In this document: positions 39,259 to 55,742 of the stretch, piece by piece
How the letters are laid out: each line of letters opens with the position of its first letter
How positions within the stretch are numbered: the stretch's first letter is position 1
Assembly (NCBI GenBank): GCA_001897855.1
Contig: MKUO01000018.1
Location: 227,463 to 291,462 of the forward strand
Length of the DNA stretch: 64,000 nt
Direction: 5' to 3'
Source of the DNA: Bacteroidetes bacterium 43-93
GTDB lineage: Bacteria > Bacteroidota > Bacteroidia > Chitinophagales > Chitinophagaceae
The notes under the pieces: generated by a model
Told to the model about the DNA's origin: nothing
The model's input: only the letters and a program-made list of their open reading frames with translations
Database searches by the model: none
Made by a program: the position numbers and the translations under genes

Positions 39259-41490
39259 ATGCATATTTCCCTTCAAAAGGCCATGGGGCTCATCGGCTGT
39301 ATTGCTTTGCCGTTTACAATATTTGCGCAGCAACGTTATAATCTTGATTTCGAACAGGCAACAGGTGATGTACCTAAAGATTGGGGTATAGGACAAATAC
39401 TGGATACAGGACTACCCAAAGAAGCGCTTGCAGGCACCTGGCATGTAGATGGGAAAGTAAAACATAATGGGAAACAGTCTCTATGCCTTGATCTTAGCAA
39501 GGCTACAACGGAATATGTTTGTAGTGGTTATAAGATACCTGTACTGCCTGTAGGCCATAAAATAACACTGACAGGCTATATAAAAACGCAGGACGCAGAC
39601 AGCGGTGCGGCGCTGTGGCTAAGATTAGACGGGCCAAATGGACAAAACATCGATAATATGGATCATCGCCTGATCAAAGGCACCACCAACTGGCAGCAAT
39701 ATACCATAGAGCTTAATTACAATGGGCAAGAAGAAAGGCAAATACTAATGGGTGCTTTGCTCTACGGCAAAGGCAAACTTTGGGTAGATGATATGCATGT
39801 GTATATTGATGGCAATGATCTCCAAAATATAGACACAGCCAATATTGACAAAAGTAAATTCTTACCTGACGATCATTCTTACACGCAAAACATTCACCTT
39901 ACAGAAGATATAATAACACGATTGACAAAATTGGGAAAGCTGTGGGCCTTCATCAAATATTATCATCAGGCTATAAACGATGGGCATTACAATATGGACG
40001 ATGAGCTATTTTCACTGCTAAACCCTGTTATAGCAGCCAAAGATAATACTGCTTTTGAGCAGATAATATCCTCCTGGATGGATAAATTAGGAACACCTTA
40101 TCCCTGCACTCACTGTTTAATGCTACAACGCACAGGGGATACGCGGATGATGCCCGACAATGATTTCATTAAGGCGTTTTCACCTGCACTACAAAGTAAA
40201 CTCAATACGATACTGAAAAACAGGGATAGCGTCACCAGCCAGTACTATGTATACTTGCCACCCGTAGGTAACCCGTTTTTTATGAACGAAAATAATTTTG
40301 CGGGTGTAAGTTACCCCGATGCTGGTGTACGGTTGCTGGCTTTGTACCGCTATTGGGCTATGGTACAATATTATTATCCTTACAAATACCGGCTGAATGA
40401 TTGGAACCTTAAACTGCAGGAGTACATACCTGTTTTCATTAATGCCAAGAACGAAACTGATTATGTACTTGCCTGCCAACGCCTTGTAGCTGCTATCAAT
40501 GATTCACATGCAATTCTCTACAACAATACACTGTTAACTCCACTACCTACAGACCACTACCTACCTGTGCAAACAAGGTTTATCAACGATACCTTAGTTG
40601 TAACAAACGTATTACCAACAGCAGGCACCAGCCCATCTGCAAACCCACTTAAAAAAGGCGATATTATCCTTGCAATTAATGACACTAATGCTATTGCTAT
40701 GGCCAATGCTATGATGCCTTATATATCCGGATCGAACCGGCAGGATAAACTACGAGACATAGCAATGGGTAAATTGTTTTGGCGCCACAAAGACACGAAA
40801 ATGAAGTTGCAGATCATGGACAGCAGCAACCACATCAAAACCATTGAAATGCCAATGGTTGAAGTGAGTGAACTATTGCGCCCTAAACACTCTGACGAAA
40901 CTTACAAACTGCTTAAAGATAGCATAGGGTATATAAAGATAGGCATGTTAAAAAATGGTGATTTTGAAAACATCAAAGAATGGTTTAAAAAAACAAACGC
41001 ACTTATATTCGATTTTCGTGGCTACCCCCATATCGATGTTACCCATATTTATGGCGCATGGCTAAGTAGCACACGTACATTATTTTCTGCGTCGTCGCAT
41101 AACAGCGCCACCTGGCCCGGGCTATTTCACATAGAGAATACAGGCTACCTGCCGGAAAATGCAGATACCTATAAAGGCAAAGTGATCATATTAGTTGATG
41201 AAACTACTCAAAGCGCGGCAGAGTATGCAGCAATGGCCTTCCAGGCTTCAGATATTGTCACTACAATAGGTACGGCAACTGCCGGCGCAGATGGCAATGT
41301 ATCGCAAATAGAACTGCCAGGTGGTATTAAAACTATGTACTCAGGCATCGGCATCTATTACCCAAACAAATCTGAGACACAAGGCAACGGCATACGTATT
41401 GACAAAATTGTACAACAGCGTGCTTTTTCTGTACGCGAAGGCAGAGACGATACTTTAGATGCAGCAATAGATATTGCAGAAAAAAAGTAG
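39259..41490 (+). CDS. Secreted S41 family peptidase
   Basis: A 743-aa protein with a signal peptide ending in IFAQ. An N-terminal beta-sandwich (about residues 25-195, with TLTGYIKTQDADSGAALWLR and LWVDDMHVYIDG) resembles a carbohydrate-binding-like module. A helical linker follows, then a PDZ-like part (about 450-540, PLKKGDIILAINDT) and the S41 tail-specific protease core (550-740). The core holds GYIKIGMLKNGDF, ALIFDFRGYPHID and VDETTQSAAEYAAMAF, with the catalytic serine in QSAAE. It probably acts in the periplasm or at the surface. Confidence 0.88.
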   Translation: MHISLQKAMGLIGCIALPFTIFAQQRYNLDFEQATGDVPKDWGIGQILDTGLPKEALAGTWHVDGKVKHNGKQSLCLDLSKATTEYVCSGYKIPVLPVGHKITLTGYIKTQDADSGAALWLRLDGPNGQNIDNMDHRLIKGTTNWQQYTIELNYNGQEERQILMGALLYGKGKLWVDDMHVYIDGNDLQNIDTANIDKSKFLPDDHSYTQNIHLTEDIITRLTKLGKLWAFIKYYHQAINDGHYNMDDELFSLLNPVIAAKDNTAFEQIISSWMDKLGTPYPCTHCLMLQRTGDTRMMPDNDFIKAFSPALQSKLNTILKNRDSVTSQYYVYLPPVGNPFFMNENNFAGVSYPDAGVRLLALYRYWAMVQYYYPYKYRLNDWNLKLQEYIPVFINAKNETDYVLACQRLVAAINDSHAILYNNTLLTPLPTDHYLPVQTRFINDTLVVTNVLPTAGTSPSANPLKKGDIILAINDTNAIAMANAMMPYISGSNRQDKLRDIAMGKLFWRHKDTKMKLQIMDSSNHIKTIEMPMVEVSELLRPKHSDETYKLLKDSIGYIKIGMLKNGDFENIKEWFKKTNALIFDFRGYPHIDVTHIYGAWLSSTRTLFSASSHNSATWPGLFHIENTGYLPENADTYKGKVIILVDETTQSAAEYAAMAFQASDIVTTIGTATAGADGNVSQIELPGGIKTMYSGIGIYYPNKSETQGNGIRIDKIVQQRAFSVREGRDDTLDAAIDIAEKK

Positions 41491-41529
41491 CATGCCTTTT
41501 AATAGTTGTAGATTTGCTTGTCTATCCAT

Positions 41530-42393
41530 CTATCCACCCATCTTCTTATCATAAGTCTCCTGTATCTTTTGCAATGCAGCATCATAGCCTGCATGGTCTA
41601 TAAAAACATCAGGATTATAAGGATCTCCGTCTTTATGCTTCTTGTGGAGGTCTACCTGGCTGGCATGGCTGGCAAGCCATATGTCAAACTGCAGGTGCTT
41701 CATCGCCTCCAGCGTATAGCCGTAATCTTTACCTATATTAGGATACGTGACCATAGATGGTAAAGTGTATTCGTCAAGTATGCTCGGCATATTTGCTATC
41801 AGCACACGATAGCTGCGATGCTCATCCTTTACGTCAAAAAGAAAACTACTTGCCCCCTTGGTATGCCCCGGATGGTGAAGCATCACTACATTCATACCCC
41901 CCAGTTTTATGGTATCACCATCATACAGCAATACATCGGGAGTTACCGGTGTATAATGTGCGCCATACTTACCATACTCAAAATCAGACAAGCCACCATC
42001 TGCAATGACACCGGCATCCTGCGCGTTCACCATTAGTTTAGCATGTGTCATTTGTTTCACTCTTGCTATATCGGCAGCATGGTCATAATGTGCATGTGTT
42101 AGTAACAGCACCTTTATATCAGAGAATTTAAAGCCCAATCGCTGCACATGGCGCTTGATCATCTCTGCGGAACCATAGGTGCCCGTATTAATAAGTATAT
42201 GGCCTTCCGGAGTAGTTATTAAATAGCTGGCAAGATCATAAGTACCTACATAATACAGGTTGCCCGCTATGCGAAAAGGCTTCATATCCTGCGTCCATTC
42301 TTTGTTGAGCGTAGGAAAATGTTTAATAGTTTGAGCCTGTATATAACCTGCAGTTAGCAGGCAGCCCGTCAGCATTAATGCGCGCAATTTCAT
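41530..42393 (-). CDS. Subclass B3 metallo-beta-lactamase
   Basis: A 287-aa enzyme started at MKLRALMLTGCLLTAGYIQAQ, a signal peptide. The zinc ligands are all present: H100, H102, D104 and H105 in THAHYDHAAD, H177 in HHPGHTKGA, and H243 in ASHASQV. HxHxDH, PGHT and a late ASH are the marks of subclass B3. The predicted activity is periplasmic hydrolysis of beta-lactams including carbapenems. B3 enzymes are often chromosomal in environmental Bacteroidota, and no mobile element flanks it, so I read it as intrinsic. The extended frame up to 42468 is not used. Confidence 0.92.
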   Translation of the reverse strand: MKLRALMLTGCLLTAGYIQAQTIKHFPTLNKEWTQDMKPFRIAGNLYYVGTYDLASYLITTPEGHILINTGTYGSAEMIKRHVQRLGFKFSDIKVLLLTHAHYDHAADIARVKQMTHAKLMVNAQDAGVIADGGLSDFEYGKYGAHYTPVTPDVLLYDGDTIKLGGMNVVMLHHPGHTKGASSFLFDVKDEHRSYRVLIANMPSILDEYTLPSMVTYPNIGKDYGYTLEAMKHLQFDIWLASHASQVDLHKKHKDGDPYNPDVFIDHAGYDAALQKIQETYDKKMGG

Positions 42394-42545
42394 ATCTGTA
42401 AGATGTAGCAGCAAATTTTGCAATTCTAAGTTCAAAAACAAAAAGAAAGTAGATGAAAAAGGATGCACATCTAGACCATCGTGGGATCCCGGTTAACATT
42501 CATTTGTATTAAATTATTATTTTCACCCCTTACATATCACTATAT

Positions 42546-43286
42546 ATGAACCGCATTATCCTTTTACTATTATTAGTGTCTTTTACAGTATCATCAAATG
42601 CCCAAAAGAAAAAAGATGATCACGTGCTTGTCTGCGAAGAAAATGTACCCGTACCTGAGGGAGCAAAGTATATAGGGAAGGTGAAGGTAAACAACAGATT
42701 CATGCCTCAGTACTCCGAAGAGGTGGTAATGAAAACAGCCATAGAAAAAGTGCTCAACAGGCATGGCAATGTCTTGAAAATCAAAAAAATAAATAAATCA
42801 CACTCACCTTTTAAAAATGACTATAGCATATGGGGTGAAATTTATCATGTTGATGATATAGAAATTGCAAAGGCTTCCATTAAGAATGTACCAGATACTA
42901 TCACGCCTCATTTAATTAGCGACACGGCAAAATATGCATTGCTCTTTGTTTACCGGCCACTCAGCTTTATTGCACAGTTAATAAATTACAAATTGCATCT
43001 GGGTGACAAAGAAATATTTACAGCTAAAAATGGCAGTTACGATACTATAAAAGTATTTAAAGAAGGTCCTGCAAATATATGGGCCACCATCGAAACTCGT
43101 TCTGAACAACAACTAGAAATAAGCTTTGGTAAAGTATATTTTATCAAATGTGAGATCGAGAATGGTGTTGTTGCACCTTCACCGCGGCTTACCGTGATGA
43201 AAAACCTGTTTAGAGGCTATACAGAATATCAACAAGTTTTCGCTGATTTAAACATTCATCGCCCCAAACAGTACGAAGATTACTAA
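42546..43286 (+). CDS. Secreted DUF2846-like protein
   Basis: A 246-aa protein with a signal peptide ending in SSNAQ. The C-terminal half, with YALLFVYRPLSFIAQLINYK, LHLGDKEIFTAKNGSYDTI and a final ISFGKVYFIKCEI, resembles the DUF2846 pattern of small surface proteins. The N-terminal half is not recognised. It overlaps the convergent gene by four bases. Function unknown. Confidence 0.65.
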   Translation: MNRIILLLLLVSFTVSSNAQKKKDDHVLVCEENVPVPEGAKYIGKVKVNNRFMPQYSEEVVMKTAIEKVLNRHGNVLKIKKINKSHSPFKNDYSIWGEIYHVDDIEIAKASIKNVPDTITPHLISDTAKYALLFVYRPLSFIAQLINYKLHLGDKEIFTAKNGSYDTIKVFKEGPANIWATIETRSEQQLEISFGKVYFIKCEIENGVVAPSPRLTVMKNLFRGYTEYQQVFADLNIHRPKQYEDY

Positions 43287-44053
43287 AAACCTACCCCAAT
43301 AAGCAGGGACAGCGTACGATGCTTCCCATCAAATTTATCCTGCGCTACCGGGTACCCGGTATTGTAGTAGGTGACATCCACTCTGTTAGCTCCACTAGCC
43401 ATTATATACTGCTGACGATATTGCACACCGAGCTTTAGAGACTTAATGTTTTTGCTACCATGCCATACATCTGCAGCAAGTGTTACACTATTTAACAGTT
43501 CTCCAATAGGCAGGTGTCTCGCACTGTTACCGAATCCGCCTCTTGCAACTGTTTCGTAATAGCCGTGATAATTGAAAGGATATTCATTGATATTTCGGTA
43601 GACCTCTGTAGACCTCATAGGCATATGCAGGGTTTGTCCTACCCTTAGTTCAGGCCAGAACTTCTTCGTAACCTTGAAACGCCAGCCTAATTCTATATTC
43701 ACATCGCCATAAGGTATAGTGCTGCGTAGTTTGTAATCTTTGGGTTTATTAACAAAGCTAAAACCTGTTATGACAGGTGGTGCGGTAAATAAGTCTATAG
43801 TGTACCGCTCATACCCTACTTCCAATCCACCGGCAACTATTAGTCCAAATTTTGTATAAAGGGAATAACGCGCACCCAGCGCCTGTGTCCAGGTATTCTT
43901 TACTGTGGTAAATTTGTAAGGTGTAGCTGACGCATAAGTTGCGTCCTTTTTATTCATCAGTATCCCTTGCCTGGTATATACATCAAATTGTCCTTTTGCA
44001 ATGGTTATTGCCGGTGCAGCTATACATAGTGCCGCGATAATGACCTTCTTCAA
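43283..44053 (-). CDS. Predicted outer-membrane beta-barrel protein
   Basis: A 256-aa protein with a signal peptide (MKKVIIAALCIAAPAITIAK). The rest alternates short amphipathic strands with glycine- and tyrosine-rich turns (LGARYSLYTKFGLIVAGGLE, VNIELGWRFKV) and ends in LLIGVGF, a terminal aromatic as in outer-membrane barrels. Function unknown. Confidence 0.65.
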   Translation of the reverse strand: MKKVIIAALCIAAPAITIAKGQFDVYTRQGILMNKKDATYASATPYKFTTVKNTWTQALGARYSLYTKFGLIVAGGLEVGYERYTIDLFTAPPVITGFSFVNKPKDYKLRSTIPYGDVNIELGWRFKVTKKFWPELRVGQTLHMPMRSTEVYRNINEYPFNYHGYYETVARGGFGNSARHLPIGELLNSVTLAADVWHGSKNIKSLKLGVQYRQQYIMASGANRVDVTYYNTGYPVAQDKFDGKHRTLSLLIGVGF

Positions 44054-44272
44054 TCTATAGGTTTTTTAGTGGCGCGAAGATAAGGGTATATAGCAAACGA
44101 GCTTCTATTCCAACCTTTTTATTTTACACGCTTCCGTTTAATTTTCACACAAAGCAACTATATACAAACATTCCAATTTGCTAGTTCCCCACAAACACAT
44201 AGGCAAAGCACATACGGTAAGCCCAATTTCCCACTTAGCAATTTTGGGAAGCTGTTTTGTAAAACATAATCT

Positions 44273-44304
44273 TTTGGCAGCGGCTATAGCGCGTAGTAGC
44301 TTTG
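44273..44304 (+). promoter_or_regulatory. Promoter of the phage packaging module
   Basis: TTTG (44273-44276), a 20-bp spacer and a perfect TAGCTTTG (44297-44304), 22 bp before the ATG at 44327. This is the host housekeeping pattern, so the module could be expressed from the chromosome. Confidence 0.6.
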
Positions 44305-44326
44305 CTGTATAAACAACCTATCACAC

Positions 44327-44950
44327 ATGGCTATAGACATTAGTCCGCTGCTAACGGACCACAACGCCCGGCCATACCACTTGTCTGCCGTGGCAGACAT
44401 CTACTCCGGGCAATACGAAGACACTTATTATTCTGATGCGCTCAGCACTGCAAGAGAAACAGCTAAAACCACCATCCATACAGATGTGGATGCTGCTGCC
44501 GGCGATGTAAATATCGCAGCCGCTATCACTGCTATCAACAGCATTATTGATGCCGCACATGCAGCGGGCAGCTTTGATGAAACAGTAGGCAGCGATCTGA
44601 AGGCCGACATCGCAGCAGCTATCAGTGCAAACATCAGCTTTGACGCAACAGCGTTGAAAACCGCGACAGACTCAGCGGTGAATGAGATACCGGTAACGGT
44701 AAACAAATCAGATGTACTGAACCGGGTAAAGGTAGAACTGGATGATTATATATCTTCTGACACTACCAACTTCCCTTATGTGGATGTTTGGTGCCAGGGT
44801 GCGGGACGGTATGAAAAATACAGGGATGCGGGTGCAGACCCCGGCGATGCTTCCCTGAAGCATTGTGATGTATGCGATGGCTTTGGCCGTAAGCCTACAC
44901 AGGGAGAGATCATTGTCATTAAACCTGCCACCACTACCTATCCTCAGTAA
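44327..44950 (+). CDS. Phage-module protein with C-terminal CxxCxG motif
   Basis: A 207-aa protein at the head of the packaging module. Residues about 35-130 are alanine-rich and helical (TARETAKTTIHTDVDAAAGD). The C-terminal part has VWCQGAGRY and, 25 residues later, HCDVCDGFGRKP, which resembles DnaJ-type zinc motifs. No family is recognised. It is one base from the small terminase gene. A structural or packaging-accessory role is inferred from position only. Confidence 0.65.
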   Translation: MAIDISPLLTDHNARPYHLSAVADIYSGQYEDTYYSDALSTARETAKTTIHTDVDAAAGDVNIAAAITAINSIIDAAHAAGSFDETVGSDLKADIAAAISANISFDATALKTATDSAVNEIPVTVNKSDVLNRVKVELDDYISSDTTNFPYVDVWCQGAGRYEKYRDAGADPGDASLKHCDVCDGFGRKPTQGEIIVIKPATTTYPQ

Positions 44951-44951
44951 T

Positions 44952-45425
44952 ATGAAGCTCAATTACATCATTAAGGGTTCAGAACAAAAATACAATAAGA
45001 CATACGCAGAGCAGGCGCATAAGCTATGCCTGCTGGGTATGGATGATGCTGCACTCGCCGGTGTTTTCGATATTACCGAAGATGTATTGCAGCAGTGGAA
45101 ACAGGAACATAAGGAATTTGCAGCAGGTATACATAAAGGGCGGGCGCTCGCGGATGCAGAGGTAGCTATGGCACTCTACAAAAGAGCAGTGGGATATGAA
45201 GCGCCGGATGTGGATATACGATTGGTGGCCGGCGAAGTGATACAGACACCATGCATCAAATATTACCCGCCCGATACCTCTGCCATCAACCTGTGGCTTA
45301 AATACAGGCAACCCAATTACTGGGCCGATAAAAAACGCAGCACTACAAACACCTTCGAAGACCTTAGCAATGTTTCAGAAGCTGAGATAGATGCACGCAT
45401 TGCAGCACTAACCGGATCACTATGA
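44952..45425 (+). CDS. Phage terminase small subunit
   Basis: A 157-aa protein started at MKLNYIIKGSEQKYNKTYAE. The N-terminal helix-turn-helix (YAEQAHKLCLLGMDDAALAG, then FDITEDVLQQWKQEH) is the form seen in terminase small subunits that bind phage DNA ends. A helical middle (HKGRALADAEVAMALYKRAVG) and a C-terminal acidic tail follow. It overlaps the large subunit start by four bases. The open frame upstream to 44865 overlaps the previous gene and is rejected. Confidence 0.82.
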   Translation: MKLNYIIKGSEQKYNKTYAEQAHKLCLLGMDDAALAGVFDITEDVLQQWKQEHKEFAAGIHKGRALADAEVAMALYKRAVGYEAPDVDIRLVAGEVIQTPCIKYYPPDTSAINLWLKYRQPNYWADKKRSTTNTFEDLSNVSEAEIDARIAALTGSL

Positions 45426-46828
45426 AGCTTGAAGAAAAAAAAGGCCTGCTGCGCTTACTATTACAGAAGCGTTGTACGGCGGCACGCAACCACCTGGCGG
45501 CATTTACACAGTTTACCATGCCTGCATTCTCACCCACCTGGTTTCACCGGTCGTACTACGAGGTATTGAACCGCTTTGCACAGGGGCAGATACGCAAGCT
45601 GATGATCTTTGTACCGCCGCAGCATGGAAAGTCGGAAGGGGCTACGCGCAGGCTGCCTGCTTACCTGCTCGGCATCAACCCGGATCATAAGATAGCCATC
45701 GTTAGCTACTCTGCTGCCAAAGCGCGTAAGTTCAATCGCGAGATACAGCATATACTGGATGATGCACCATACGGACAGCTGTTCCCGAATGTAAAACTCT
45801 CTAACGGTGCCGATGGTTATGCCCGCACTATGGACGAGATAGAAGCAGTGGGCTATAACGGTGGCATCAAAACGGTAGGTGTTGGTGGCGCACTTACGGG
45901 CGAACCTGTAGACATCCTCATCATGGACGATCTGTACAAAGATGCCAAAACGGCCTGGAGCGAGCTGATGCGTGATAGTATAGAACATTGGTACAATGCT
46001 GTTGCAGAAACACGCCTGCACAACAATAGCCGTCAACTCATCGTCTTCACACGCTGGCACGAGAAAGACCTTGCAGGGTATCTTTTGCAAAAAGAGTCCG
46101 ACTGGGAAGTATTTACCTACCCGGCTATAAAAGTGGGCAAGCCCAATGCTTATGACCCTCGGGATGAAGGAGAGGCCCTTTGGCCCGAACGGCACAGCGC
46201 TGCTAAGATGGAGGCTATACGCCAGCGCGATCCCTGGGTGTTTGGCAACCTCTACCAGCAGGACCCTAAAGTAAAAGAAGGCTTGCTGTATAAAACCTTT
46301 AAGACCTACAAGCTGTTACCTGCCGATGCAGTAACCATCAAAGCGGTAGTAGACACCGCTGATACCGGCAGCGATTACCTGTGCAGTATTGTATATGCTA
46401 CATCTCCGCAAGGGTATTATATACTCGATGTCCTATACACGCAGGAGGGCATGGATACTACCGAGCAGCAAGTGGCAGCACAGCTCTGCAAATACCAGGT
46501 GCAGCAGGCACGTATAGAAAGCAACAACGGTGGCCGTGGCTTTGCCCGCAATGCAGAACGCATCTGCCGCACGATGGGCAATACGCGCACTATGTTCCAA
46601 TGGTATCACCAGAGAGATAATAAAGAGGTACGCATCTTCACCCGTGCTGCCGAGGTACAGAACATGATCTATTACCCCGATGGCTGGAATGCATTATACC
46701 CACAGTTCTACGGCGCTGTAAAAGGCTATATGGCGCAAGGCCGCAACAGGCACGATGATGCTGCAGATGCACTCACCATGATACTCGAAGCAGAAACCAA
46801 AAAAACTTATAACATTCATTACACCTAA
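45422..46828 (+). CDS. Phage terminase large subunit
   Basis: A 468-aa ATPase-nuclease that drives DNA into the capsid. The Walker A-like motif is VPPQHGKSEGATR (about residues 64-76), Walker B is DILIMDD (164-170), and VFTRWHEKDLAGYL follows. The RNase H-like nuclease begins with VVDTADTGSDYLCSIVY (about 305-320) and ends with HDDAADALTMILEAE, giving the acidic metal residues. It is intact in length, with no frameshift. Confidence 0.93.
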   Translation: MKLEEKKGLLRLLLQKRCTAARNHLAAFTQFTMPAFSPTWFHRSYYEVLNRFAQGQIRKLMIFVPPQHGKSEGATRRLPAYLLGINPDHKIAIVSYSAAKARKFNREIQHILDDAPYGQLFPNVKLSNGADGYARTMDEIEAVGYNGGIKTVGVGGALTGEPVDILIMDDLYKDAKTAWSELMRDSIEHWYNAVAETRLHNNSRQLIVFTRWHEKDLAGYLLQKESDWEVFTYPAIKVGKPNAYDPRDEGEALWPERHSAAKMEAIRQRDPWVFGNLYQQDPKVKEGLLYKTFKTYKLLPADAVTIKAVVDTADTGSDYLCSIVYATSPQGYYILDVLYTQEGMDTTEQQVAAQLCKYQVQQARIESNNGGRGFARNAERICRTMGNTRTMFQWYHQRDNKEVRIFTRAAEVQNMIYYPDGWNALYPQFYGAVKGYMAQGRNRHDDAADALTMILEAETKKTYNIHYT

Positions 46829-46833
46829 ACATT

Positions 46834-48486
46834 ATGATACTATCACAGCAAGACATAGAGCACATCTTAAAGAACAGGCCCAACAAACCATTGGTAGACG
46901 CCGCACAGGCATACAGCCGTAAGCTTACCATGCACATCACGGGTACGGGGCTCGATGCCTACATTCAGAAGCTCGACTATTTTGAAAAGAAGGAGCTATA
47001 CGATATACGCCTCCGCTACACACGTAGCAATAAAGATTTCTTCAGCCGCCTGCACCGCCCTATAGACAAAGTGTTTACCGCCAATGGTGGCAGCAGCTAT
47101 TACAATATGCCCGATGGCGCGCGCCGTGCCTTCCTGCAAATGCTCAGCGATGTAGAATGGGGGCATAGCCTGCGCAGCTGGGTAAAGACCTTCTGGCAGC
47201 CTGCCCTGCATTACGATCCTATGGGCCTTATTATGATGGAGGTAGATGATAAGGGAGATACTTACCCCACCTACAAAAGCAGCAACACTATCTACGATTA
47301 CCAGCTTACAGGACGCCGGCCCGAGTACGTGATCTTCTGCACCGATATTAAGCCCGATGATGCAAGCATTGCAGATAGCAGGCCACGGAAAATATACAGG
47401 GTGGTTGATGATGCTATGGACTACCTGGTAGAGTGGAATGGCAACGCAGCGACAATTATAGAAGAGCATAGTTTTGCCAATCATTACGGCAAGCTGGCTG
47501 CATGGGTATTGTCAGACAGGTATGATCCGCAACGGGGCTATTATATTTCTCCTGATGATGCCGTGATAGAGCTGGCAGATCAGTACCTGCGCGAAGGCGG
47601 CATTCTTAATGTGTTCAAGAATCATTTTGGTTTCCCACAGCGCTGGCGCTATATGGGCGATTGCGATAAATGCAAGGGCACCACGCAGATAAACGGCGAG
47701 CAATGCGATGCCTGCAACGGCAGCGGTAAAAAACATAAGTACGATGTATCTCAGGATATTAACCTGCCCATACCATCTAAGGAAGATCCTTTACTGGTGC
47801 CACCTGCGGGCAATATAGAAACATCCGTCACCTCCTGGGATAAGATGGATAGCTCGCTCGATGCACTCTTTAATATGGCCTACTACACCAAATGGGGTGT
47901 GGAGTATGCGATACAAACTACTGGGCCGGACGTTAAGACAGCTACACAATCGCTGATGGATGAGCAACCTAAGATAGAGGCGCTCTATGCATACAGTGCT
48001 GCAGCAGAGCAAACGGAGAAGATGATCGCAGACCACATGGGTAGCTTTTACTTCGGTAGCAGCTATGGCGGTGCAGATATCAATTACGGCAAACGCTTTA
48101 TGCTCGAAAGCCCGGATAAGATCATGGATGCACTGGTAGCATTGGTACGTGATGAAGCTCCCTACGAGATCGTCCGCGAAAAGATGGAAGCCTACTATCA
48201 TACCCTGTACCAGGGCGATAGTGTAAAACTAAACACTGCCCTGAAGCTGATAGATGTAGAGCCGCTTCCTTTCTGCCCGCTCAGCCGAGCGAAGGGTCTG
48301 CTAAGCCCTATGGACTATGCACGCAAGCTATATTATAACGACTGGCGCGGCCTCAAAGCCACCCGCGATATGCTGATGAAGAGCACCGTAGAAGCCCTGC
48401 GTGCATCCCTCACTGTCTATACATTGCAGCGCATCAGCGACCCCACCACCCAAACCACCTTGCAACCAACAACCACAATAATATGA
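46834..48486 (+). CDS. Phage portal-like protein with inserted CxxCxG zinc motif
   Basis: A 550-aa protein directly after the large terminase, the portal position. The helical C-terminal region (VEYAIQTTGPDVKTATQSLM, later DALVALVRDEAPYEIVREKM) fits a portal. The assignment rests mainly on position and size. Four cysteines, C277, C280, C291 and C294, form CDKCKG and CDACNGSG, a DnaJ-like zinc pair unusual in a portal. The frame is intact and overlaps the next gene by four bases. Confidence 0.7.
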   Translation: MILSQQDIEHILKNRPNKPLVDAAQAYSRKLTMHITGTGLDAYIQKLDYFEKKELYDIRLRYTRSNKDFFSRLHRPIDKVFTANGGSSYYNMPDGARRAFLQMLSDVEWGHSLRSWVKTFWQPALHYDPMGLIMMEVDDKGDTYPTYKSSNTIYDYQLTGRRPEYVIFCTDIKPDDASIADSRPRKIYRVVDDAMDYLVEWNGNAATIIEEHSFANHYGKLAAWVLSDRYDPQRGYYISPDDAVIELADQYLREGGILNVFKNHFGFPQRWRYMGDCDKCKGTTQINGEQCDACNGSGKKHKYDVSQDINLPIPSKEDPLLVPPAGNIETSVTSWDKMDSSLDALFNMAYYTKWGVEYAIQTTGPDVKTATQSLMDEQPKIEALYAYSAAAEQTEKMIADHMGSFYFGSSYGGADINYGKRFMLESPDKIMDALVALVRDEAPYEIVREKMEAYYHTLYQGDSVKLNTALKLIDVEPLPFCPLSRAKGLLSPMDYARKLYYNDWRGLKATRDMLMKSTVEALRASLTVYTLQRISDPTTQTTLQPTTTII

Positions 48487-48683
48487 CAAAACGTAAAGAA
48501 ACCACACCCGCACTAAAGCAGTACGAATACTGGAAGGTACGCCCGGAATATGAGGGCAACGACATTACCGAATGGCGCAGGATAGAAGAACTGATAGCAA
48601 TAGTAAGCCTGGAACCACGCCATGCCGATGCACTCAACGAACACGCACACAACACAGGCTTTCGCTATTTCCCTATATCGTAA
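48483..48683 (+). CDS. Small phage-module protein
   Basis: A 66-aa basic protein starting MTKRKETTPALKQYEYWKVR. The ATGA overlap with the portal-like gene shows translational coupling. No family recognised. Confidence 0.6.
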   Translation: MTKRKETTPALKQYEYWKVRPEYEGNDITEWRRIEELIAIVSLEPRHADALNEHAHNTGFRYFPIS

Positions 48684-48707
48684 ACACATTTAAAACCACT
48701 TTACACC

Positions 48708-49517
48708 ATGCTTAGCAAACAAGCACAGCTACAACTATTACAGCTTATAGGCCTGCCCGCAGACGAGATAGAACAACTGCTGGCGGAAGAAGAACCGCAG
48801 GACATCTCCCTGCCCGATGGCATCCGCATATATGATGCAGAAGGTTATGCCGCCCTGGAGGCACAGCTCAAAGCCAATGGCAAAACAGGCTATATCAATG
48901 CCGGTAAGGAAATAGCTATTAAGAACCTGAAGGAGAAACTAGGTATAGAATACGATGGCAAGGATGCAGACATCTTCCTGCAAAAAGCAAAGGAAAAGAT
49001 ATTGGCAGATGCCGGTGATGCAGAGCAGGTAGCAACGCTCCGCCGGCAGTTGCAGGATTATGAAGCGCAACTGCAAACACTCGGCACAGAGAAACAAGCC
49101 CTTGCCCGCGACACCGAATGGCTGAAGAAATTCCCTGCAGGGCGCAGCACAGGTATGAGCGATGAGGACAGGCTACTGCTGTTAAAAACACGCATCACGC
49201 AGCAGCAGGACGAGGAAGGCAACACCACCTACCTGTACAAAGGCAAGCCCCTGGCAGATGAAGAAGGCAGCTATGATATAGCCCGCACACTGGAGCATGT
49301 ATTTACCGAAGAGCGCTGGCTGGGCGATAGCTACCCCATGCAGCACCGCCCGGGGCGTGGTGCCCACAGCACCCATGGCAGCGGCTACCGCCCCATGACC
49401 TTAACAGAAGCCGAAACCCAGTGGGAACGTACCGGCCGCAAAGCAGAGGGCTACGAGTTCCAGGCACATGTAGTGGGCCTCAAAAAAGAGAATCCTGATT
49501 TTGATTTAAATAAGTAA
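48708..49517 (+). CDS. Phage scaffold-like protein
   Basis: A 269-aa acidic, helical protein. A coiled coil at about residues 100-140 (ADAGDAEQVATLRRQLQDYE) and a position between portal and where the capsid gene should be suggest a scaffolding protein. The N-terminus has LGLPADEIEQLLAEEE-like helices. No capsid gene follows; a terminator and then an unrelated AT-rich gene come next. Confidence 0.6.
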   Translation: MLSKQAQLQLLQLIGLPADEIEQLLAEEEPQDISLPDGIRIYDAEGYAALEAQLKANGKTGYINAGKEIAIKNLKEKLGIEYDGKDADIFLQKAKEKILADAGDAEQVATLRRQLQDYEAQLQTLGTEKQALARDTEWLKKFPAGRSTGMSDEDRLLLLKTRITQQQDEEGNTTYLYKGKPLADEEGSYDIARTLEHVFTEERWLGDSYPMQHRPGRGAHSTHGSGYRPMTLTEAETQWERTGRKAEGYEFQAHVVGLKKENPDFDLNK

Positions 49518-49570
49518 CGGCCTGCCCCTTTCCAGGGGCTCAGGGAATCTTTCATAAGTTGATAGGAATT

Positions 49571-49598
49571 AAAGCCTACCCGCAAGGGTGGGCTTTTT
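49571..49598 (+). terminator. Terminator of the packaging module
   Basis: A 10-bp stem aagcctaccc/gggtgggctt with GCAA loop and T tract, 54 bp after the scaffold-like gene. Confidence 0.75.
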
Positions 49599-49674
49599 GG
49601 GTATGATTGACAATGGTGTTTTTCACGGTGGCTGAATGAGTCCGAATTAGTAGGTTTGAGTAAACCTAATACCT

Positions 49675-51453
49675 GTGCGACATAATTTATCGTCTATTCG
49701 AATAGTCAATTTTAAGTCTTTAATCGATTGTAACTTCAAATTATCTGATTATACACCCTTAGTAGGTTACAACAATGCGGGGAAATCAAATATTATTCAT
49801 GCTATAAAATGGCTGTTCCAGAAATCCTCTTTGTCTACCGAGGATTTCAAAGACCCAACAAAACCTGTTGAAGTAATTGGTGTTATTGAAGGGATAACAA
49901 AAGAAATACTTGAACAACTTGACATAAAACACAAAAAGGCCATTGAAAAATTTATTAATAATGGTTGTATAACAATCAAGCGGGTTCAAGAAATACCGGC
50001 AGCTAAATCCCCAGATATAAAATTACAAGTACGAAAGATAGAATTTACCCCGGAAGAGGATGAATGGGCAGTTAACCCAACAGGAATTGATAATGCAATT
50101 AGTTCATTGTTTCCTGAACCAATACATGTAGGTGCAATGGAAAATGCCGAAGAAGATGTTTCTAAATCAAAAACTGGAACAACTATTGGGAAACTTCTTT
50201 CGCGCATTGTCGAACCTATCGAAAAAAAATATGGTGCTGATCTCAAAAAGCAATTGTCTAGTATTGGTTCTTTATTGGACGCAGATAGTGATTCGCGCGC
50301 ACCTGAATTGAACGAATTCGACAGCGGGATGAATGATAAAATTGATATTTTTTTTCAGGGCGTTAAAGTTAAAGTTCATGTACCAACTCCCGAGTTAAAA
50401 GAAGTATTTGGTAAAGGGACTTTAAAGGTTTTCGAATCTGATAGGATTGGCGGAAAAGATGTATCATCGTTAGGACATGGAGCTCAACGATCAATTCAGA
50501 TGGCATTGATTCAACATCTATCTGAACTACAGAAATTTTCGGATAATGATCCATCCAGGACCTTATTGCTTATCGACGAACCTGAACTTTACCTTCATCC
50601 ACAAGCTATTGAGGTTATCAGACATGCCTTGAAAACCTTGTCAAAAAATAATTATCAAATCATCTTCTCAACACACTCTGCATTATTAATAACAGAAAAA
50701 GACATGCCAAGCACTATTTTGGTAAGAAAGTCAACATCAGATGGAACGCACAAAAAACCAACATTACATGAGGCTGTAATTCAAACTTTATCTGACAGAC
50801 CGAGCCAAACCAAACTTCTGTTCTCTTTAGGTAATTCGTCTAAACTATTATTTTCTGAAACAGTAATACTAGCCGAGGGAAAGACCGAAAATCGATTGTT
50901 GCCGATTATTTTTGAATCAATAAAAGGAATTTCATTAGGAAAGGCCAAGGTAGCACTTATTGAGCAAGGCGGAAGTGGAGACACTAAAAAATCTATGGAG
51001 ATATTAAAAGTAATGGGGTTACCAAATAAAGCAATCGTGGATTTAGATTATGCATTCAAATCTGCCATTGACAATAAGACATTAAGTCCCGATGATGAAG
51101 ATTGTATAAAATGTAAGCAGATCTTGTCAGACCTTGCTGATGGCTACAATATAATATTGGATAACTCCGGCTGGCCGACAAAAAAAGATGGAAGTTTGAC
51201 AGCCGCTGAAGCATTTGCCATTTTGGCAAAAGATCAGAGAGCTAAAGATAGTATTGACTCTTTGCATAAAAAGCTAAAAGAACACAACATTTGGTTATGG
51301 AAATATGGAACGATTGAACATCATCTTGGGCTTACACAAAAGAATGAACTCGCTTGGGCCGAATTTGCTAACAAAATAGAAATAACTAGTCCGGAGGAAC
51401 TTATTCTTGATTACGATGGTGTTAAAGAATGTATGGAATGGCTCATGAATTAA
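49675..51453 (+). CDS. OLD-family ATP-dependent endonuclease
   Basis: A 592-aa protein starting with GTG. The N-terminal ABC/SMC-like ATPase has Walker A GYNNAGKS (31-38), a signature-like SLGHGAQRS (265-273), Walker B LLLIDEPELYLHP (297-309) and FSTHSALL (331-338). The C-terminal TOPRIM nuclease has the glutamate in VILAEGKTE (E401) and the aspartates in IVDLDYA (D456, D458). This order defines OLD nucleases, several of which act in phage defence. No GajB-type helicase follows, so Gabija is not supported. It is markedly AT-richer than its neighbours, a sign of transfer. Confidence 0.9.
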   Translation: MRHNLSSIRIVNFKSLIDCNFKLSDYTPLVGYNNAGKSNIIHAIKWLFQKSSLSTEDFKDPTKPVEVIGVIEGITKEILEQLDIKHKKAIEKFINNGCITIKRVQEIPAAKSPDIKLQVRKIEFTPEEDEWAVNPTGIDNAISSLFPEPIHVGAMENAEEDVSKSKTGTTIGKLLSRIVEPIEKKYGADLKKQLSSIGSLLDADSDSRAPELNEFDSGMNDKIDIFFQGVKVKVHVPTPELKEVFGKGTLKVFESDRIGGKDVSSLGHGAQRSIQMALIQHLSELQKFSDNDPSRTLLLIDEPELYLHPQAIEVIRHALKTLSKNNYQIIFSTHSALLITEKDMPSTILVRKSTSDGTHKKPTLHEAVIQTLSDRPSQTKLLFSLGNSSKLLFSETVILAEGKTENRLLPIIFESIKGISLGKAKVALIEQGGSGDTKKSMEILKVMGLPNKAIVDLDYAFKSAIDNKTLSPDDEDCIKCKQILSDLADGYNIILDNSGWPTKKDGSLTAAEAFAILAKDQRAKDSIDSLHKKLKEHNIWLWKYGTIEHHLGLTQKNELAWAEFANKIEITSPEELILDYDGVKECMEWLMN

Positions 51454-51751: not shown

Positions 51752-52519
51752 ATGCCCGTAATTATTGTTTTCATTGCCATGTGGTATCTGTCGCTCTTTG
51801 CGCAAACATTTTTTCACCACAGGTATGCCTCTCATGGCGCCTTTACCATGAGCAAACGCTGGGAGCGTTTCTTTTACATCTTCACCTTCGTCTCGCAGGG
51901 CGCGCACTATATGAGCCCCCGCTCTTATGCCATCATGCACCGTATGCACCATGCTTATACAGATACTGCCAAAGACCCGCACTCACCTGCTTTTTCTTCC
52001 AACCTCATCAGCATGATGCTGCGTACCCGCCGTTATTATAATGATATCCTCAAGGGCCGTATGCCTGTAGAGGAGCGTTTCCTGAAAAACCTGCCCGAAT
52101 GGAAGAGCTTCGACAAATGGGCCAATTCCACAACCTCGCGTTTATTGTGGGCTGCCGTGTACCTGGCATTCTTCATCATGTACGCTACCAATCCGTGGAT
52201 CTACTTACTGTTGCCTATTATGCTGGGCATGGGTGCTTTTCATGGTGCACTCATCAACTGGTTTGCACACAAATATGGTTATATCAATTTCAGGCTCCGC
52301 AACACATCACGAAACCTGCTGTTCATAGATGTGCTCATGCTCGGCGAGTCTTATCATAACAATCACCACAAGCGCCCCTCAGCCATCAACTTTGGTAAGC
52401 GCTGGCACGAGATAGACCCGGTGTACCCCGTCATACGCATGCTGGCCTGGATGCGCATCATCAAAGTTGCAAAGCTGAAACCTCTGCCCGTAGAGGCCAC
52501 CACAACAACAGACCATTAA
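51752..52519 (+). CDS. Acyl-CoA (fatty acid) desaturase
   Basis: A 255-aa di-iron membrane desaturase. The three histidine boxes are HHRYASH (22-28), HRMHHAYTD (63-71) and HNNHHKRP near residue 200. Membrane helices lie between them (about 1-20, 40-55, 120-160). Predicted role: introduces a double bond into saturated acyl chains, adjusting membrane fluidity. The upstream 130 bp could be a leader, with TATCTTTA at 51615-51622 as a weak -7. Confidence 0.9.
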   Translation: MPVIIVFIAMWYLSLFAQTFFHHRYASHGAFTMSKRWERFFYIFTFVSQGAHYMSPRSYAIMHRMHHAYTDTAKDPHSPAFSSNLISMMLRTRRYYNDILKGRMPVEERFLKNLPEWKSFDKWANSTTSRLLWAAVYLAFFIMYATNPWIYLLLPIMLGMGAFHGALINWFAHKYGYINFRLRNTSRNLLFIDVLMLGESYHNNHHKRPSAINFGKRWHEIDPVYPVIRMLAWMRIIKVAKLKPLPVEATTTTDH

Positions 52520-52540
52520 AAATAACCGATCATAAACACA

Positions 52541-52579
52541 AGGCGATCTCATCTGCAAAGAAGAGGTCGCTTTTTTTAT
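52541..52579 (+). terminator. Terminator of the desaturase gene
   Basis: gcgatctc pairs with gaggtcgc (one G-T pair), followed by a seven-T run. Confidence 0.7.
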
Positions 52580-52597
52580 TTATCGATCTATATCACC

Positions 52598-52710
52598 TAT
52601 TAACCTATCGCCCTATTACCCTATTAACCTATTACCCTATTAACCTATCACCCCATTAACCTATTAACCTATCACCCCATTACCCTCTCACCCTATTAAC
52701 TTATCACCCC
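52598..52710. repeat. 8-bp-phased tandem repeat tract
   Basis: About thirteen near-consecutive octamers of the type ctattaac, ctattacc, ctatcacc, ccattaac. It is the longest member of the repeat family found in four intergenic regions of the window. No coding frame. Confidence 0.8.
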
Positions 52711-52740
52711 CACAAAAATACCGCTCTTAAAAAAGAGCGG
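52711..52740 (-). terminator. Minus-strand terminator without upstream gene
   Basis: ccgctctt-aaaa-aagagcgg (52721-52740), followed on the minus strand by TATTTTTGTG. The plus strand has no T tract after it. Confidence 0.65.
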
Positions 52741-52920
52741 CCATGTGCTATACCATATATGTACGACCCCAAATCTTCTATAGGGTGTTCCTAACCAAAC
52801 AGCTTCTTAACGATATGCCGTGTACCTGCTCATGCAATTGCACAAGCACACACTTTTACCAATAAAGGAACAGGAAAGCAGGAGCGGAGTAGCGGTCGGC
52901 TTCATGATGCAGGAGGTTTG
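52713..52920 (-). ncRNA. Candidate structured small RNA, 6S-like shape
   Basis: A gene-free 300-bp stretch. On the minus strand TAACTTTA (52926-52933) could be the -7 element and a hairpin plus U tract (52711-52740) the end, giving about 208 nt. Pairings: cgacc/ggtcg (52764-52768 with 52894-52898), tgttcc/ggaaca (52786-52791 with 52867-52872) and a terminal hairpin 52828-52847. Two mismatches of the terminal hairpin on the plus strand become G-U pairs on the minus strand. Closing stem, open middle and terminal stem resemble 6S RNA in outline, but no conserved core was verified. Confidence 0.4.
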
Positions 52921-53021
52921 TACTGTAAAGTTATATGTAAATAATCCTTAAAATTCGCTACCCGTGTTTTTCTCAGCATTAAATCTTCGTAACTTTAAGT
53001 AACAATTAATAAACCACACAC

Positions 53022-53663
53022 ATGAAAGCCCTTTTCTCCACCACAGCATTATTACTGTTGCATTTTGCAGCATCCGCCTCACCCGCATGGGAGCTTAAAA
53101 AAAACCAGGACAGCATTAAAGTATATACCGCCAATGCCGATAACAGCAATGTAAAATCGGTACGGGTAGAATGTATCATCAATGCAACCCCGTCGCAGCT
53201 TACTGCACTCTTACTCGATGCCAAAGCGCACGAGCAGTGGGTGTATAGCACCAAAAGATCTTATGCTATACGCAGCACAGGCCCGGGCAGTCAGCTATAC
53301 TATTCAGAGATATCTATGCCATGGCCGCTTGCCAATCGAGAGGTAGTAGTGAATTTCTCTGTATCGCAACAGCCTGTTACCAAAGTGCTCACTGTAAAGG
53401 CAATTGCTATCAACGGCGAGCTGGAGCCTAAGAATGATAAGGTACGTGTAGTAAGGTCTAACGTCATCTGGACAGTAACACCGCTTGCCCCAAACAGGTT
53501 AAAGATAGAATACATTGCAGATGCCGATCCCGGTGGTTCTGTACCTGCATGGATCACCAATATGTTCCTAACCAAAGGCCCTTACGAAACCTTCAAACAA
53601 CTACGGCAGGAAGTAACCAAGCCCGCCTATCAAAAAGCTCATTTCGATTTTATTGCAGATTAG
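53022..53663 (+). CDS. Secreted START-domain protein
   Basis: A 213-aa protein with a signal peptide ending ASASP. The mature part is a START (lipid-binding) domain: WELKKNQDSIKVYTANADNS, VRVECIINATPSQLTALLLD, a YYSEISMPWPLANREVV segment, and SNVIWTVTPLAPNRLKIEY. It probably binds a lipid or other hydrophobic ligand in the periplasm. TAACTTTA at 52990-52997 is a weak -7. The 3' end overlaps the convergent gene by 14 bp. Confidence 0.85.
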   Translation: MKALFSTTALLLLHFAASASPAWELKKNQDSIKVYTANADNSNVKSVRVECIINATPSQLTALLLDAKAHEQWVYSTKRSYAIRSTGPGSQLYYSEISMPWPLANREVVVNFSVSQQPVTKVLTVKAIAINGELEPKNDKVRVVRSNVIWTVTPLAPNRLKIEYIADADPGGSVPAWITNMFLTKGPYETFKQLRQEVTKPAYQKAHFDFIAD

Positions 53664-54273
53664 AGCCTTCTTTCTTAAACCATAAGGCCAGTGCCAGCAT
53701 AGACCCTGCTGCAGTCACCAGCCATGGTGTGCCCAGCAACAAAAGCGGTATGGAAAACTGCGGGTAGAAATACACTACCGATATTACAGGCACCATAATG
53801 CCATGCGCTATAAAGAAATAACGCACTCGTTTACCCCGACCCAGGTTGGTCAATGCACCGGATGCAAACAAGGTAGCAATGCCCATGAATATATAAGCCA
53901 TCGCATCCAGGGTCCAGAAGAGGGAGTGCGGCGTTACAGTGAGCGCAGCATTTACTTCTCCTTTCACGGATGCAGGTATCACTGTCGCCAGTTGCTCTAC
54001 ATACATCAGGCTGGCACTCATAGCATATAACACAGCAAAGAGCAGTCCCGCATGGCTCCATAGCTTCCGCTCTCCGGGCGTGCTGTAGTGCAATGCAAGC
54101 ATAGCCAGCATAAAAGGCGGTGCAATGCACAGAGATGTAGCATATATCAATGTTGCGTCTGCAGGATAGCTGACCAATCTTATCACCTGTGCTATCTGCA
54201 CTATTCCGTAAGCGATAATAGCTAAGAAAGACATGCCGGCGCTGTAGTATCCAAATCGGGTTACGGTTTTCAT
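53650..54273 (-). CDS. Multi-pass membrane protein of unknown function
   Basis: A 207-aa protein with about six membrane helices (FLAIIAYGIVQIAQVIRL, LCIAPPFMLAMLALHYS, HAGLLFAVLYAMSASLMYVE and three more). No catalytic motif is recognised. It ends inside the convergent START gene, an overlap of 14 bp. Confidence 0.7.
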   Translation of the reverse strand: MKTVTRFGYYSAGMSFLAIIAYGIVQIAQVIRLVSYPADATLIYATSLCIAPPFMLAMLALHYSTPGERKLWSHAGLLFAVLYAMSASLMYVEQLATVIPASVKGEVNAALTVTPHSLFWTLDAMAYIFMGIATLFASGALTNLGRGKRVRYFFIAHGIMVPVISVVYFYPQFSIPLLLLGTPWLVTAAGSMLALALWFKKEGSNLQ

Positions 54274-54398
54274 ACCTGTGGTTTTTTCCCGTAAAGTGAA
54301 TGAAAGAATGCATCTACTTCATTGATACCCGTTAGCCTGTCATATGATATTCATCACCATATGGCAGATTTCACCGGGATACATAAGCCTGTTTTTTA

Positions 54399-54406
54399 TA
54401 TTTTTG
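54399..54406 (+). promoter_or_regulatory. -7 element TATTTTTG of lysA
   Basis: A perfect TAnnTTTG 17 bp before the ATG at 54424. A matching -33 is not evident. Confidence 0.4.
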
Positions 54407-54423
54407 CAGACTTTTAAAAATTT

Positions 54424-55638
54424 ATGAGCCATACTTTAAGTAATCAGCAGCTGATTGAGATCGCCAATGAATTTGGCACGCCGGTATATATATACCATGC
54501 AGAAAAGATAGCAGAACAGTACAACAAGCTGAAGGATGCGTTCAAGAACCATCCTACGCGTTTTTTCTATGCATGCAAGGCCCTCACCAACATCAATGTG
54601 CTGAAGTACCTGAAGAGCCTGGGCGCATCTATAGATTGTGTAAGCATCAACGAAGTAAACCTGGCATTAAAAGCAGGCTTCGAACCGTCTGATATACTGT
54701 TTACACCCAACTGTGTAGACCTGAACGAGATCATCGAAGGACAAAAGCTGGGCGTTAATATCAATATAGATAACATCAGCATCCTGGAGCAGTTTGGCAA
54801 TAAGTATGGCAACAGCTATCCTGTGTGCATCCGTATCAATCCGCATATAGAAGCGGGTGGTAACTATAAAATATCTACCGGGCATATAGATAGCAAGTTT
54901 GGTATCTCTGTGCACCAGATGCGTCATATAGAGCGTATTGTTAAAACAACTAAGCTGCATGTAAAGGGCCTGCACATGCATACCGGCAGCGAGATCAAAG
55001 ATGCGGATGTATTCCTGCAGGGGCTGGAAGTGATGTTTGATATTGCCCGCCATTTCGAGCAGTTGGAGTTCATCGATATGGGCTCGGGCTTTAAAGTGCC
55101 TTATAAAGACGGCGATAAAGAAACAGACGTAGCTAAGCTGGGCGAAAAGCTCACCAGTGCTATCAAAGAATTTGAAGCAGAGTACAACCGCACGCTGGAA
55201 GTATGGTTTGAGCCCGGCAAATACCTGGTGAGCGAATGTGGGTACTTTGTAGTAAAGGCCAATGTGATCAAACAAACACCGGCAACTGTTTTCGTGGGTG
55301 TCAATTCAGGCTTCAATCACCTGATACGCCCTATGTTCTACGATGCCTACCACCGCATTGCCAATATCAGCAATCCATCAGGTGCAGAGCGCATCTACAC
55401 CATTGTAGGTAATATTTGTGAAACAGACACTTTCGCTTGGGACCGTGTACTGAACGAAGTACGCGAAGGTGATTACCTGGCATTCTACAATGCCGGTGCT
55501 TATGGTTTTGAAATGAGCAGTAATTTCAACTCCCGCCTCAAGCCTGCGGAAGTAATGGTAAAAGATGGCCAGCCGTTCCTCATACGCAAGCGCGATGTGT
55601 TTGAAGACCTCCTCCGCAACCAGGTAGAGGTTTTGTAA
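54424..55638 (+). CDS. lysA: Diaminopimelate decarboxylase
   Basis: A 404-aa PLP enzyme that converts meso-diaminopimelate to lysine, the last step of lysine synthesis. The PLP lysine is K52 in FYACKALTN. HMHTGSEI and FIDMGSGFKVPY follow, then EPGKYLVSECGY, and CETDTFA and NAGAYGFEMSS in the C-terminal barrel, which contribute to the dimer active site. The length and motif order are normal. It is a single gene with its own -7 element and terminator. Confidence 0.93.
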   Translation: MSHTLSNQQLIEIANEFGTPVYIYHAEKIAEQYNKLKDAFKNHPTRFFYACKALTNINVLKYLKSLGASIDCVSINEVNLALKAGFEPSDILFTPNCVDLNEIIEGQKLGVNINIDNISILEQFGNKYGNSYPVCIRINPHIEAGGNYKISTGHIDSKFGISVHQMRHIERIVKTTKLHVKGLHMHTGSEIKDADVFLQGLEVMFDIARHFEQLEFIDMGSGFKVPYKDGDKETDVAKLGEKLTSAIKEFEAEYNRTLEVWFEPGKYLVSECGYFVVKANVIKQTPATVFVGVNSGFNHLIRPMFYDAYHRIANISNPSGAERIYTIVGNICETDTFAWDRVLNEVREGDYLAFYNAGAYGFEMSSNFNSRLKPAEVMVKDGQPFLIRKRDVFEDLLRNQVEVL

Positions 55639-55647
55639 TATTTCATT

Positions 55648-55675
55648 AATAGGGTAACAAGTTAATTAGGTAAAA
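55648..55675. repeat. Short 8-bp-phased repeat
   Basis: Octamers gtaacaag, ttaattag, gtaaaaag after lysA are the reverse-complement type of the family described at 52598. It merges with the terminator. Confidence 0.45.
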
Positions 55676-55738: not shown

Positions 55739-55742
55739 CAGC

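Follow-up and report, generated by a model that had tools for sequence, protein, structure and literature searches.

A conserved phage packaging module, 62 kb from a matching capsid gene, as the possible half of a two-locus particle system in a Bacteroidota genome

We analysed 64,000 nucleotides of DNA from Bacteroidetes bacterium 43-93 (assembly GCA_001897855.1, genome G000), namely C18:227463-291462, where C18 stands for contig MKUO01000018.1. This whole stretch is called the window, and positions without a prefix are counted from its first base. At 44254-49600 lies a phage-type packaging module in which a promoter, six open plus-strand genes and a terminator form a single unit. The genes run in the order orphan, TerS (small terminase), TerL (large terminase), portal, a gene for a protein of 66 amino acids (aa), and scaffold-type. 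Ratios of nonsynonymous to synonymous substitution rates (dN/dS) refer to comparison with G014, a second species of the genus. The features are as follows:

44254..44326, + strand: promoter and 5′ leader, with TTG (44274-44276), a spacer N20 and TAGCTTTG (44297-44304)
44327..44950, + strand: orphan first gene, 207 aa, with a C-terminal cysteine-rich stretch; open, 93% identical to G014, dN/dS 0.051
44952..45425, + strand: TerS, 157 aa; phrog_309, E = 7.9e-39; dN/dS 0.146 over 154 of 157 codons
45422..46828, + strand: TerL, 468 aa, with ATPase and RNase H-like nuclease domains; phrog_38, E = 7e-94; dN/dS 0.027
46834..48486, + strand: portal, 550 aa, with a DnaJ-like CxxC..CxxC insertion; phrog_7376, E = 4.4e-35; dN/dS 0.051
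48483..48683, + strand: small protein, 66 aa, no assigned function; open, dN/dS 0.122
48708..49517, + strand: scaffold-type protein, 269 aa; phrog_30432, E = 9e-4 (weak alone); dN/dS 0.076
49566..49600, + strand: intrinsic terminator, a hairpin (about 49571-49600) and T run, both found
49675..51453, + strand: OLD-family defence nuclease, outside the conserved module (cargo); PADLOC Old, E = 2.5e-232

A sequence-only reading of this stretch had described the terminase, portal and scaffold genes as open and tightly coupled by overlaps, and both descriptions hold: TerS and TerL overlap by 4 bases, as do the portal and 66-aa genes, and the remaining gaps measure 1, 5 and 24 bases. TerL also matches Terminase_6N, Terminase_6C and TIGR01630, and its nearest relatives in the phage collection are enzymes of Porphyromonas and Bacteroides phages. 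The portal is 35.3% identical to that of Pseudanabaena phage Pan5 across 97%, matches the solved portal 9wwa by profile (E = 8e-21) and carries CxxC..CxxC cysteines of which all four are invariant in five of five aligned portals. A portal profile run against 395 genomes of the class gave 23 matches including G000, mostly short stretches at the cysteine motif, and most of these matches are probably DnaJ-type. The orphan protein had no match in the phage collection and no confirmed relative in a peptide-pattern scan of IMG/VR; its Pfam, PHROG and NCBIfam matches were weak at best, and its structure model (predicted local distance difference test score, pLDDT, 43) was uninformative. The C-terminus encoded by this first gene (44327-44950) is CxGxG...CxxCxGxG-like, resembling the cysteine insertion of the module portal (46834-48486).

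The last gene of the module was assigned from its relatives. The PHROG matched by the 269-aa protein, phrog_30432, also holds Pan5 gene 5 (E = 1e-12), which lies directly 5′ of the Pan5 capsid gene. We drew the portal/scaffold family from Pan5, Rhodobacteraceae phage LS06-2018-MD05, Polaribacter phage P12002L and a prophage in genome G212, and in four of these four the scaffold homologue stands directly before the capsid gene. Among homologues on portal-bearing viral contigs, the best 25 listed are 266-287 aa long, and 21 of the 25 align near full length. Judged by homology, the 269-aa protein is scaffold-type, that is, the product of a kind of gene normally found directly before the major capsid gene.

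The same gene order was seen in a wider control. Scanning IMG/VR with the portal family alignment yielded 143 relatives, of which the best 80 were kept. A portal frame was recovered from 77 of these 80 viral contigs, and in 47 the sequence continued for at least 4 kb downstream. A capsid gene lay on the portal's strand within 6 kb in 46 of the 47 (median 1.8 kb), several of these contigs scoring alike and probably being near-identical copies, and the only contig missed (L188) does have a capsid match by tblastn. Peptide-pattern scans of IMG/VR gave no confirmed relative of the portal alone and none of the G000 capsid protein alone.

The Pan5-like phages (Pan5, LS06-2018-MD05 and P12002L) and the prophage in G212 have portal, scaffold-type and capsid proteins related to those of G000, and the relative order of their genes agrees; two PHROGs are in common with Pan5 (phrog_30432 for the scaffold and phrog_7231 for a distant capsid, described below). 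In contrast to those phages, where the capsid gene directly follows the scaffold gene, here the scaffold gene is followed by a terminator and the capsid gene lies 62 kb off on the other strand. A Pan5-like head operon was rejected as a description of the module, there being no same-strand capsid gene soon after portal and scaffold.

The sequence-only reading had further reported that capsid, tail, lysis and integrase genes were missing. Near the module this stands, since those families were absent from ten neighbours scanned against PHROGs and Pfam (four on the left within 39259-44053 and six on the right within 51752-56920). These ten genes belong to host-type families or gave no match; a desaturase (51752-52519) also matches a PHROG of unknown function, and a metallo-beta-lactamase-fold protein (41530-42468) also matches PHROGs of hydrolases. 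The remaining window genes, beyond these ten, the OLD nuclease and the module, were judged from frames by eye only. Outside the window the claim fails, as a capsid, tail and lysis cluster lies on the same contig.

The age of the short module could be judged from its relatives. We sought TerL in 99 genomes, 15 of them in the genus (G000 counted in both), and found matches in three: G000, G014 (same genus, 96% identical) and G042 (a partial match at 27%). The other 13 genomes of the genus had no match to the module TerL, and complete prophages with identical left ends were not found in sister strains. G014 carries the same short module with identical ends at the identical place, window positions 43264-49599 aligning at 86% DNA identity and both flanks being collinear. 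Between the two species, synonymous divergence (dS) is 0.37-1.04 for the six module genes, with TerS the lowest at 0.37, and 0.50-1.64 for 12 flanking genes; the corresponding dN/dS values are 0.027-0.146 and 0.014-0.257 (one flanking gene was compared across 47 codons only). The six genes contain no gap and no stop codon, with 0 nonsense hits observed against about 138 expected (first order, neutral distance 0.65). Because ends and place are the same, dS is flank-like and decay is absent in G014, the short form is older than the split of the two species, was inherited vertically and has been held under purifying selection.

The boundaries of the unit are conserved as well. The motif TTG-N20-TAGCTTTG at 44274-44304, which we take to match the Bacteroidetes-type promoter consensus, occurs 19 times in 199 kb with spacers of 18-22, both strands counted. 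Against G014, the promoter segment 44254-44326 is 93.2% identical without gaps, compared with 53.7% for the 53 bases before it (44201-44253) and 73.5% for 44054-44200. At the other end the terminator hairpin and T run are unchanged in G014, the 35-base segment is 88.6% identical, and homology ends just beyond. Promoter and terminator do bound the module, as had been proposed from the sequence.

These results bear on two explanations that had been offered for the module. Very recent deletion of most of a prophage was rejected, since the same short unit with the same ends stands in a second species at dS 0.37-1.04, with flank-like divergence and no decay. The alternative, that the module is kept for a purpose, gains support from purifying selection on all six genes and from the conservation of promoter and terminator. 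An empty-site comparison in congeners recovered lysA in six of six 20-kb stretches and the other 19 query proteins in none of the six, so there was no empty site to compare.

A capsid gene of the same family does lie on the contig. Using a capsid profile built from Pan5, LS06-2018-MD05, P12002L and the G212 prophage, we found a single match in G000, at C18:208780-209793 on the minus strand (E = 1e-101). Its distance from the left edge of the window is 17.7 kb, and the module lies 62 kb to its right. The match belongs to a capsid-tail-endolysin cluster within C18:191729-209919, about 17-36 kb left of the window, on the strand opposite to the module. Adjoining the capsid gene, in phage order, are genes for an adaptor, a tail terminator, further tail proteins, a tape-measure-like protein and a GH19-type endolysin; the cluster capsid belongs to phrog_7231, common to Pan5, and the endolysin to phrog_181. 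The capsid, tail and lysis genes thus lie about 62-80 kb from the module. Closer to the window, at C18:222299-227291 (0.2-5 kb to its left), genes for a DnaA-C-like protein, a DnaB helicase and a replication initiator occupy the minus strand, with an S24 repressor divergent from them on the plus strand. We found no terminase or portal in the capsid cluster or the replication region, and no integrase among 20 proteins of C18:191.7-227.3 scanned in Pfam, a set that did not include every frame.

Searched with the module proteins or the portal profile, G000 gave a single match for the portal and a single match for TerL, both the module's own. The two loci are complementary, in that the module stops at a scaffold gene and the phage genes of the other locus begin at the capsid. 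Between the capsid and replication genes lie about 12 kb of accessory genes (C18:210.0-222.3), among them genes for an acyltransferase and, named by eye, a DoxX-like protein, as well as a candidate defence gene; this stretch may now occupy the place where packaging genes would be expected, a reading in line with the gene order. The candidate defence gene encodes an AAA_13 protein (L152 11182-13539, equal to C18:218644-221001) that matches the PADLOC candidate defence family PDC-S06 (E = 2e-260). GC content at third positions is 0.46-0.57 in five module genes, 0.53-0.55 in the head-proximal structural genes and 0.36-0.41 in the distal tail genes. A single inversion from the capsid gene to the terminator would restore the order portal-scaffold-capsid, yet the replication genes would remain out of place and 44 kb of host genes would still intervene, and we judged it insufficient; the module occupies the same place in G000 and G014.

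Overall, one genome combines a selected, self-contained module with capsid, tail and lysis genes of the same family, clustered at a locus that yielded neither portal nor terminase. On this basis we read the module as supplying packaging for a particle system of prophage origin that is divided between two loci, a reading to which we assign a probability of roughly 45%. The system would probably, or at least possibly, resemble a gene transfer agent (GTA), though it is not a proved GTA. The portal and scaffold of the module would nucleate procapsids of the capsid protein encoded 62 kb away, TerS and TerL would fill them, and tail and endolysin would be supplied by the distant cluster. The earlier suggestion of packaging into helper particles needs amending in this respect, since the matching capsid, tail and lysis genes are in the same genome, 62 kb to the left.

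What such particles would carry follows from size and starting point. The two halves span 85 kb, compared with genomes of 46.5, 44.8 and 48.7 kb in related phages; one particle would therefore be unable to hold the whole set, if heads here are of like size. Particles would then carry mainly host DNA, as in a GTA or in lateral transduction starting at the module, and we infer that this DNA would be packaged and delivered. In pac phages, packaging starts near terS. If it does so here, particles would fill with the chromosomal DNA next to the module, with the OLD nuclease first in G000 and a gene other than the OLD nuclease first in G014. The fullest form of this proposal, a domesticated two-locus transfer system of Bacteroidota in which packaging runs from the module into the chromosome and carries tens of kb of neighbouring host DNA rather than the particle genes, we regard as doubtful.

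Several observations weigh against the two-locus reading. The best relatives of the two halves differ, the portal being closest to L192 and L178 (448 and 447 bits; 41% and 45%) and the capsid to the G212 prophage (369 bits, 54%), so that one common origin is not shown by the sequences; phage genomes being mosaic, such a difference neither proves nor excludes a single origin. A TerL of another family may be present elsewhere in G000. The replication genes and repressor kept beside the capsid half are more prophage-like than GTA-like. No second copy of the capsid half was found for comparison: profiles detected no family capsid gene in G014, G013 or G003 (with G212 as its own positive control) and no family tail gene in G014.

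The search in G014 extended to DNA. When 20 contig ends of G014 (8-15 kb each) were compared with C18:92463-227462, no match of at least 200 bases appeared, which adds to the points against the two-locus reading, and the left edge at least of the G000 stretch differs in G014. Compared with G014, C18:207463-227462 gave short scattered matches only (among 40 scored of 88 candidates), C18:172463-187462 gave three matches of up to 333 bases (40 scored of 46), and in C18:152463-172462 the first 971 bases match, up to a tRNA-Asp gene, with two further matches of about 100 bases or less (40 scored of 50); C18:187463-207462 was covered by the tail-protein profile only, not as DNA. The G014 assembly breaks at the place concerned, contig C6 beginning at a match to C18:228108 and contig C7 tracking G000 to C18:153433 before 7.8 kb of other sequence to the contig end, so an absence of capsid genes in G014 is not proved. 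The gene hemN, chosen to flag missing core sequence, proved not to be core, with a close homologue in 3 of 15 genomes, and the marker test failed.

The main rival is that both loci are pieces of a prophage broken by rearrangement before the species split and now slowly dying as functionless relics. This is consistent with halves of one phage family on opposite strands of one contig, with the persistence of a phage-like replication region and repressor, and with the failure to find a capsid gene in G014, where the stretch that contains the capsid half (C18:153.4-228.1, bounded on the left by the tRNA-Asp) showed no syntenic counterpart in the parts searched. A relic, in contrast, does not explain purifying selection after the split: the six module genes show dN/dS of 0.03-0.15 and no stops or indels since then, unlike relics, and promoter and terminator are conserved. 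We consider this explanation unlikely. The original observation of an intact packaging module was correct, and in our reading the module is part of a split prophage-derived particle system rather than a relic.

Alternatively, the module might have been domesticated for a job that needs no capsid, for example DNA translocation or service as a decoy portal and terminase against incoming phages, the G000 capsid cluster then being an unrelated prophage. G014 keeps the module and yielded no capsid gene, the module has its own promoter and terminator, and a defence gene lies directly downstream in G000. That defence gene, however, is not common to G014, and the scaffold-type gene is conserved at dN/dS 0.076. 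A scaffold is useful only together with a capsid protein. Moreover, the parts encoded by the module are the ones that the G000 capsid cluster lacks, and the genome yielded no further portal of the family; we consider a capsid-independent role distinctly unlikely. We did not accept the missing capsid match in G014 as proof of capsid-free function, given the assembly break at the place concerned.

The module could also be a stripped, satellite-like parasite that borrows helper-phage capsids and tails to package itself or nearby DNA, as packaging genes without structural genes beside them and variable cargo just downstream, including a defence gene, might suggest. PICI-type satellites (phage-inducible chromosomal islands) carry integrases and regulators. 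Frames, Pfam and neighbour scans found no integrase, replication or regulator genes joined to the module, which sits at one fixed place in two species and had no match in 13 other genomes of the genus; we consider a satellite very unlikely and rejected assignment to a PICI or other satellite on the same grounds. Separate entry into both species by phage recombination, with conservation reflecting phage evolution, is extremely improbable: phage genes are often exchanged and the dS of TerS (0.37) is below that of the other five genes, but ends and flanks agree on both sides, whole-unit dS is like that of the flanking genes, and the IMG/VR peptide-pattern scans gave no close relative of the portal or first gene.

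Set beside known GTAs, the two-locus reading finds both likenesses and differences. Among the features by which a passage of PMC9662315 defines GTAs are a fully endogenised genome, often at several loci (five for RcGTA), and a genome too large to be packaged in full. The same definition names tailed-phage-derived proteins able to form particles like those of tailed phages, vertical inheritance with co-diversification alongside the host, packaging of mostly random host DNA, its delivery to other cells, and loss of replication as a phage. The present genes are spread over packaging (C18:271789-276979), capsid, tail and lysis (C18:191729-209919) and replication and repressor (C18:222299-227291) loci, which we infer to be one system. 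Families of tailed-phage-derived proteins are present at two loci. Vertical inheritance was observed for the packaging module in two species, no second copy of the capsid half having been found. As to phage replication, DnaB, a replication initiator and the S24 repressor remain near the capsid half, the repressor in particular being a point of difference from BaGTA and RcGTA.

The comparison with the Bartonella agent BaGTA is of a similar kind. A passage of PMC3610622 gives BaGTA substitution rates like those of flanking core genes, and the module resembles it in having phage-derived head and packaging genes under selection at rates near those of neighbouring core genes. A separate phage replication region is a further likeness, BaGTA having its run-off replication (ROR) region. 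In contrast, BaGTA has nine genes at one location, according to PMC3610622, and capsid, portal and terminase are included, whereas the present module is cut off from the capsid gene; the host here, too, differs in belonging to the Bacteroidota.

Other systems resemble the locus in part. In lateral transduction, as outlined in a section of PMC12829572, packaging begins at a set position in the chromosome and thereby mobilises defence genes, and headful (pac) packaging from a fixed place here would likewise move adjacent DNA, defence genes included; there a whole prophage packages in situ, whereas here packaging genes alone stand at the putative start point. Lateral transduction has been reported in Bacteroides, as stated in part of PMC12946183. 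Phage satellites (P4-like, PICI and AH14b) similarly rely on particles encoded elsewhere, at least as described in an excerpt of PMC4936722, but here portal and scaffold are the module's own, and searches showed no integrase or replication genes linked to it. A complete temperate prophage was rejected, since the opposite strand carries the capsid, tail and lysis genes at a distance of about 62-80 kb and the module has host genes as neighbours.

Separating packaging from capsid genes would be a simple route from a phage to a device that packages host DNA, and in our judgement a step of this kind in the origin of a GTA is rarely caught. Among the listings of an open-paper search, no title described a GTA of Bacteroidetes or Bacteroidota, and our literature searches found no paper on split prophages or separately located packaging genes.

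Some further observations concern the surroundings. In G014 the OLD nuclease is lacking behind the module, and other, unrelated short genes fill the same slot. This slot (49675-51453; L009 14325-15908), beyond which extended G014 homology resumes at 52714, looks like a small gene-exchange hot spot. G000 and G014 diverge at the tRNA-Asp gene (L168 896-970), next to which a serine-recombinase-like gene (L174 96-1739, by eye) lies in G014; the tRNA gene is thus a probable integration site. Two PKD-like lipoprotein paralogues (33% identical, named by eye), at window 150-833 and L152 4772-5467, flank the phage replication region in opposite orientation, and the G014 contig C6 starts inside the match to the window copy. 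Finally, the window encodes a family of long proteins (at 2070-3710, 21996-23432 and 23772-28396) with repeated 'SDGTxxGT' units, several sharing a C-terminal tail (by eye); alignment blocks with G014 are broken and partly duplicated there, and the arrangement of copies probably differs between the two species.

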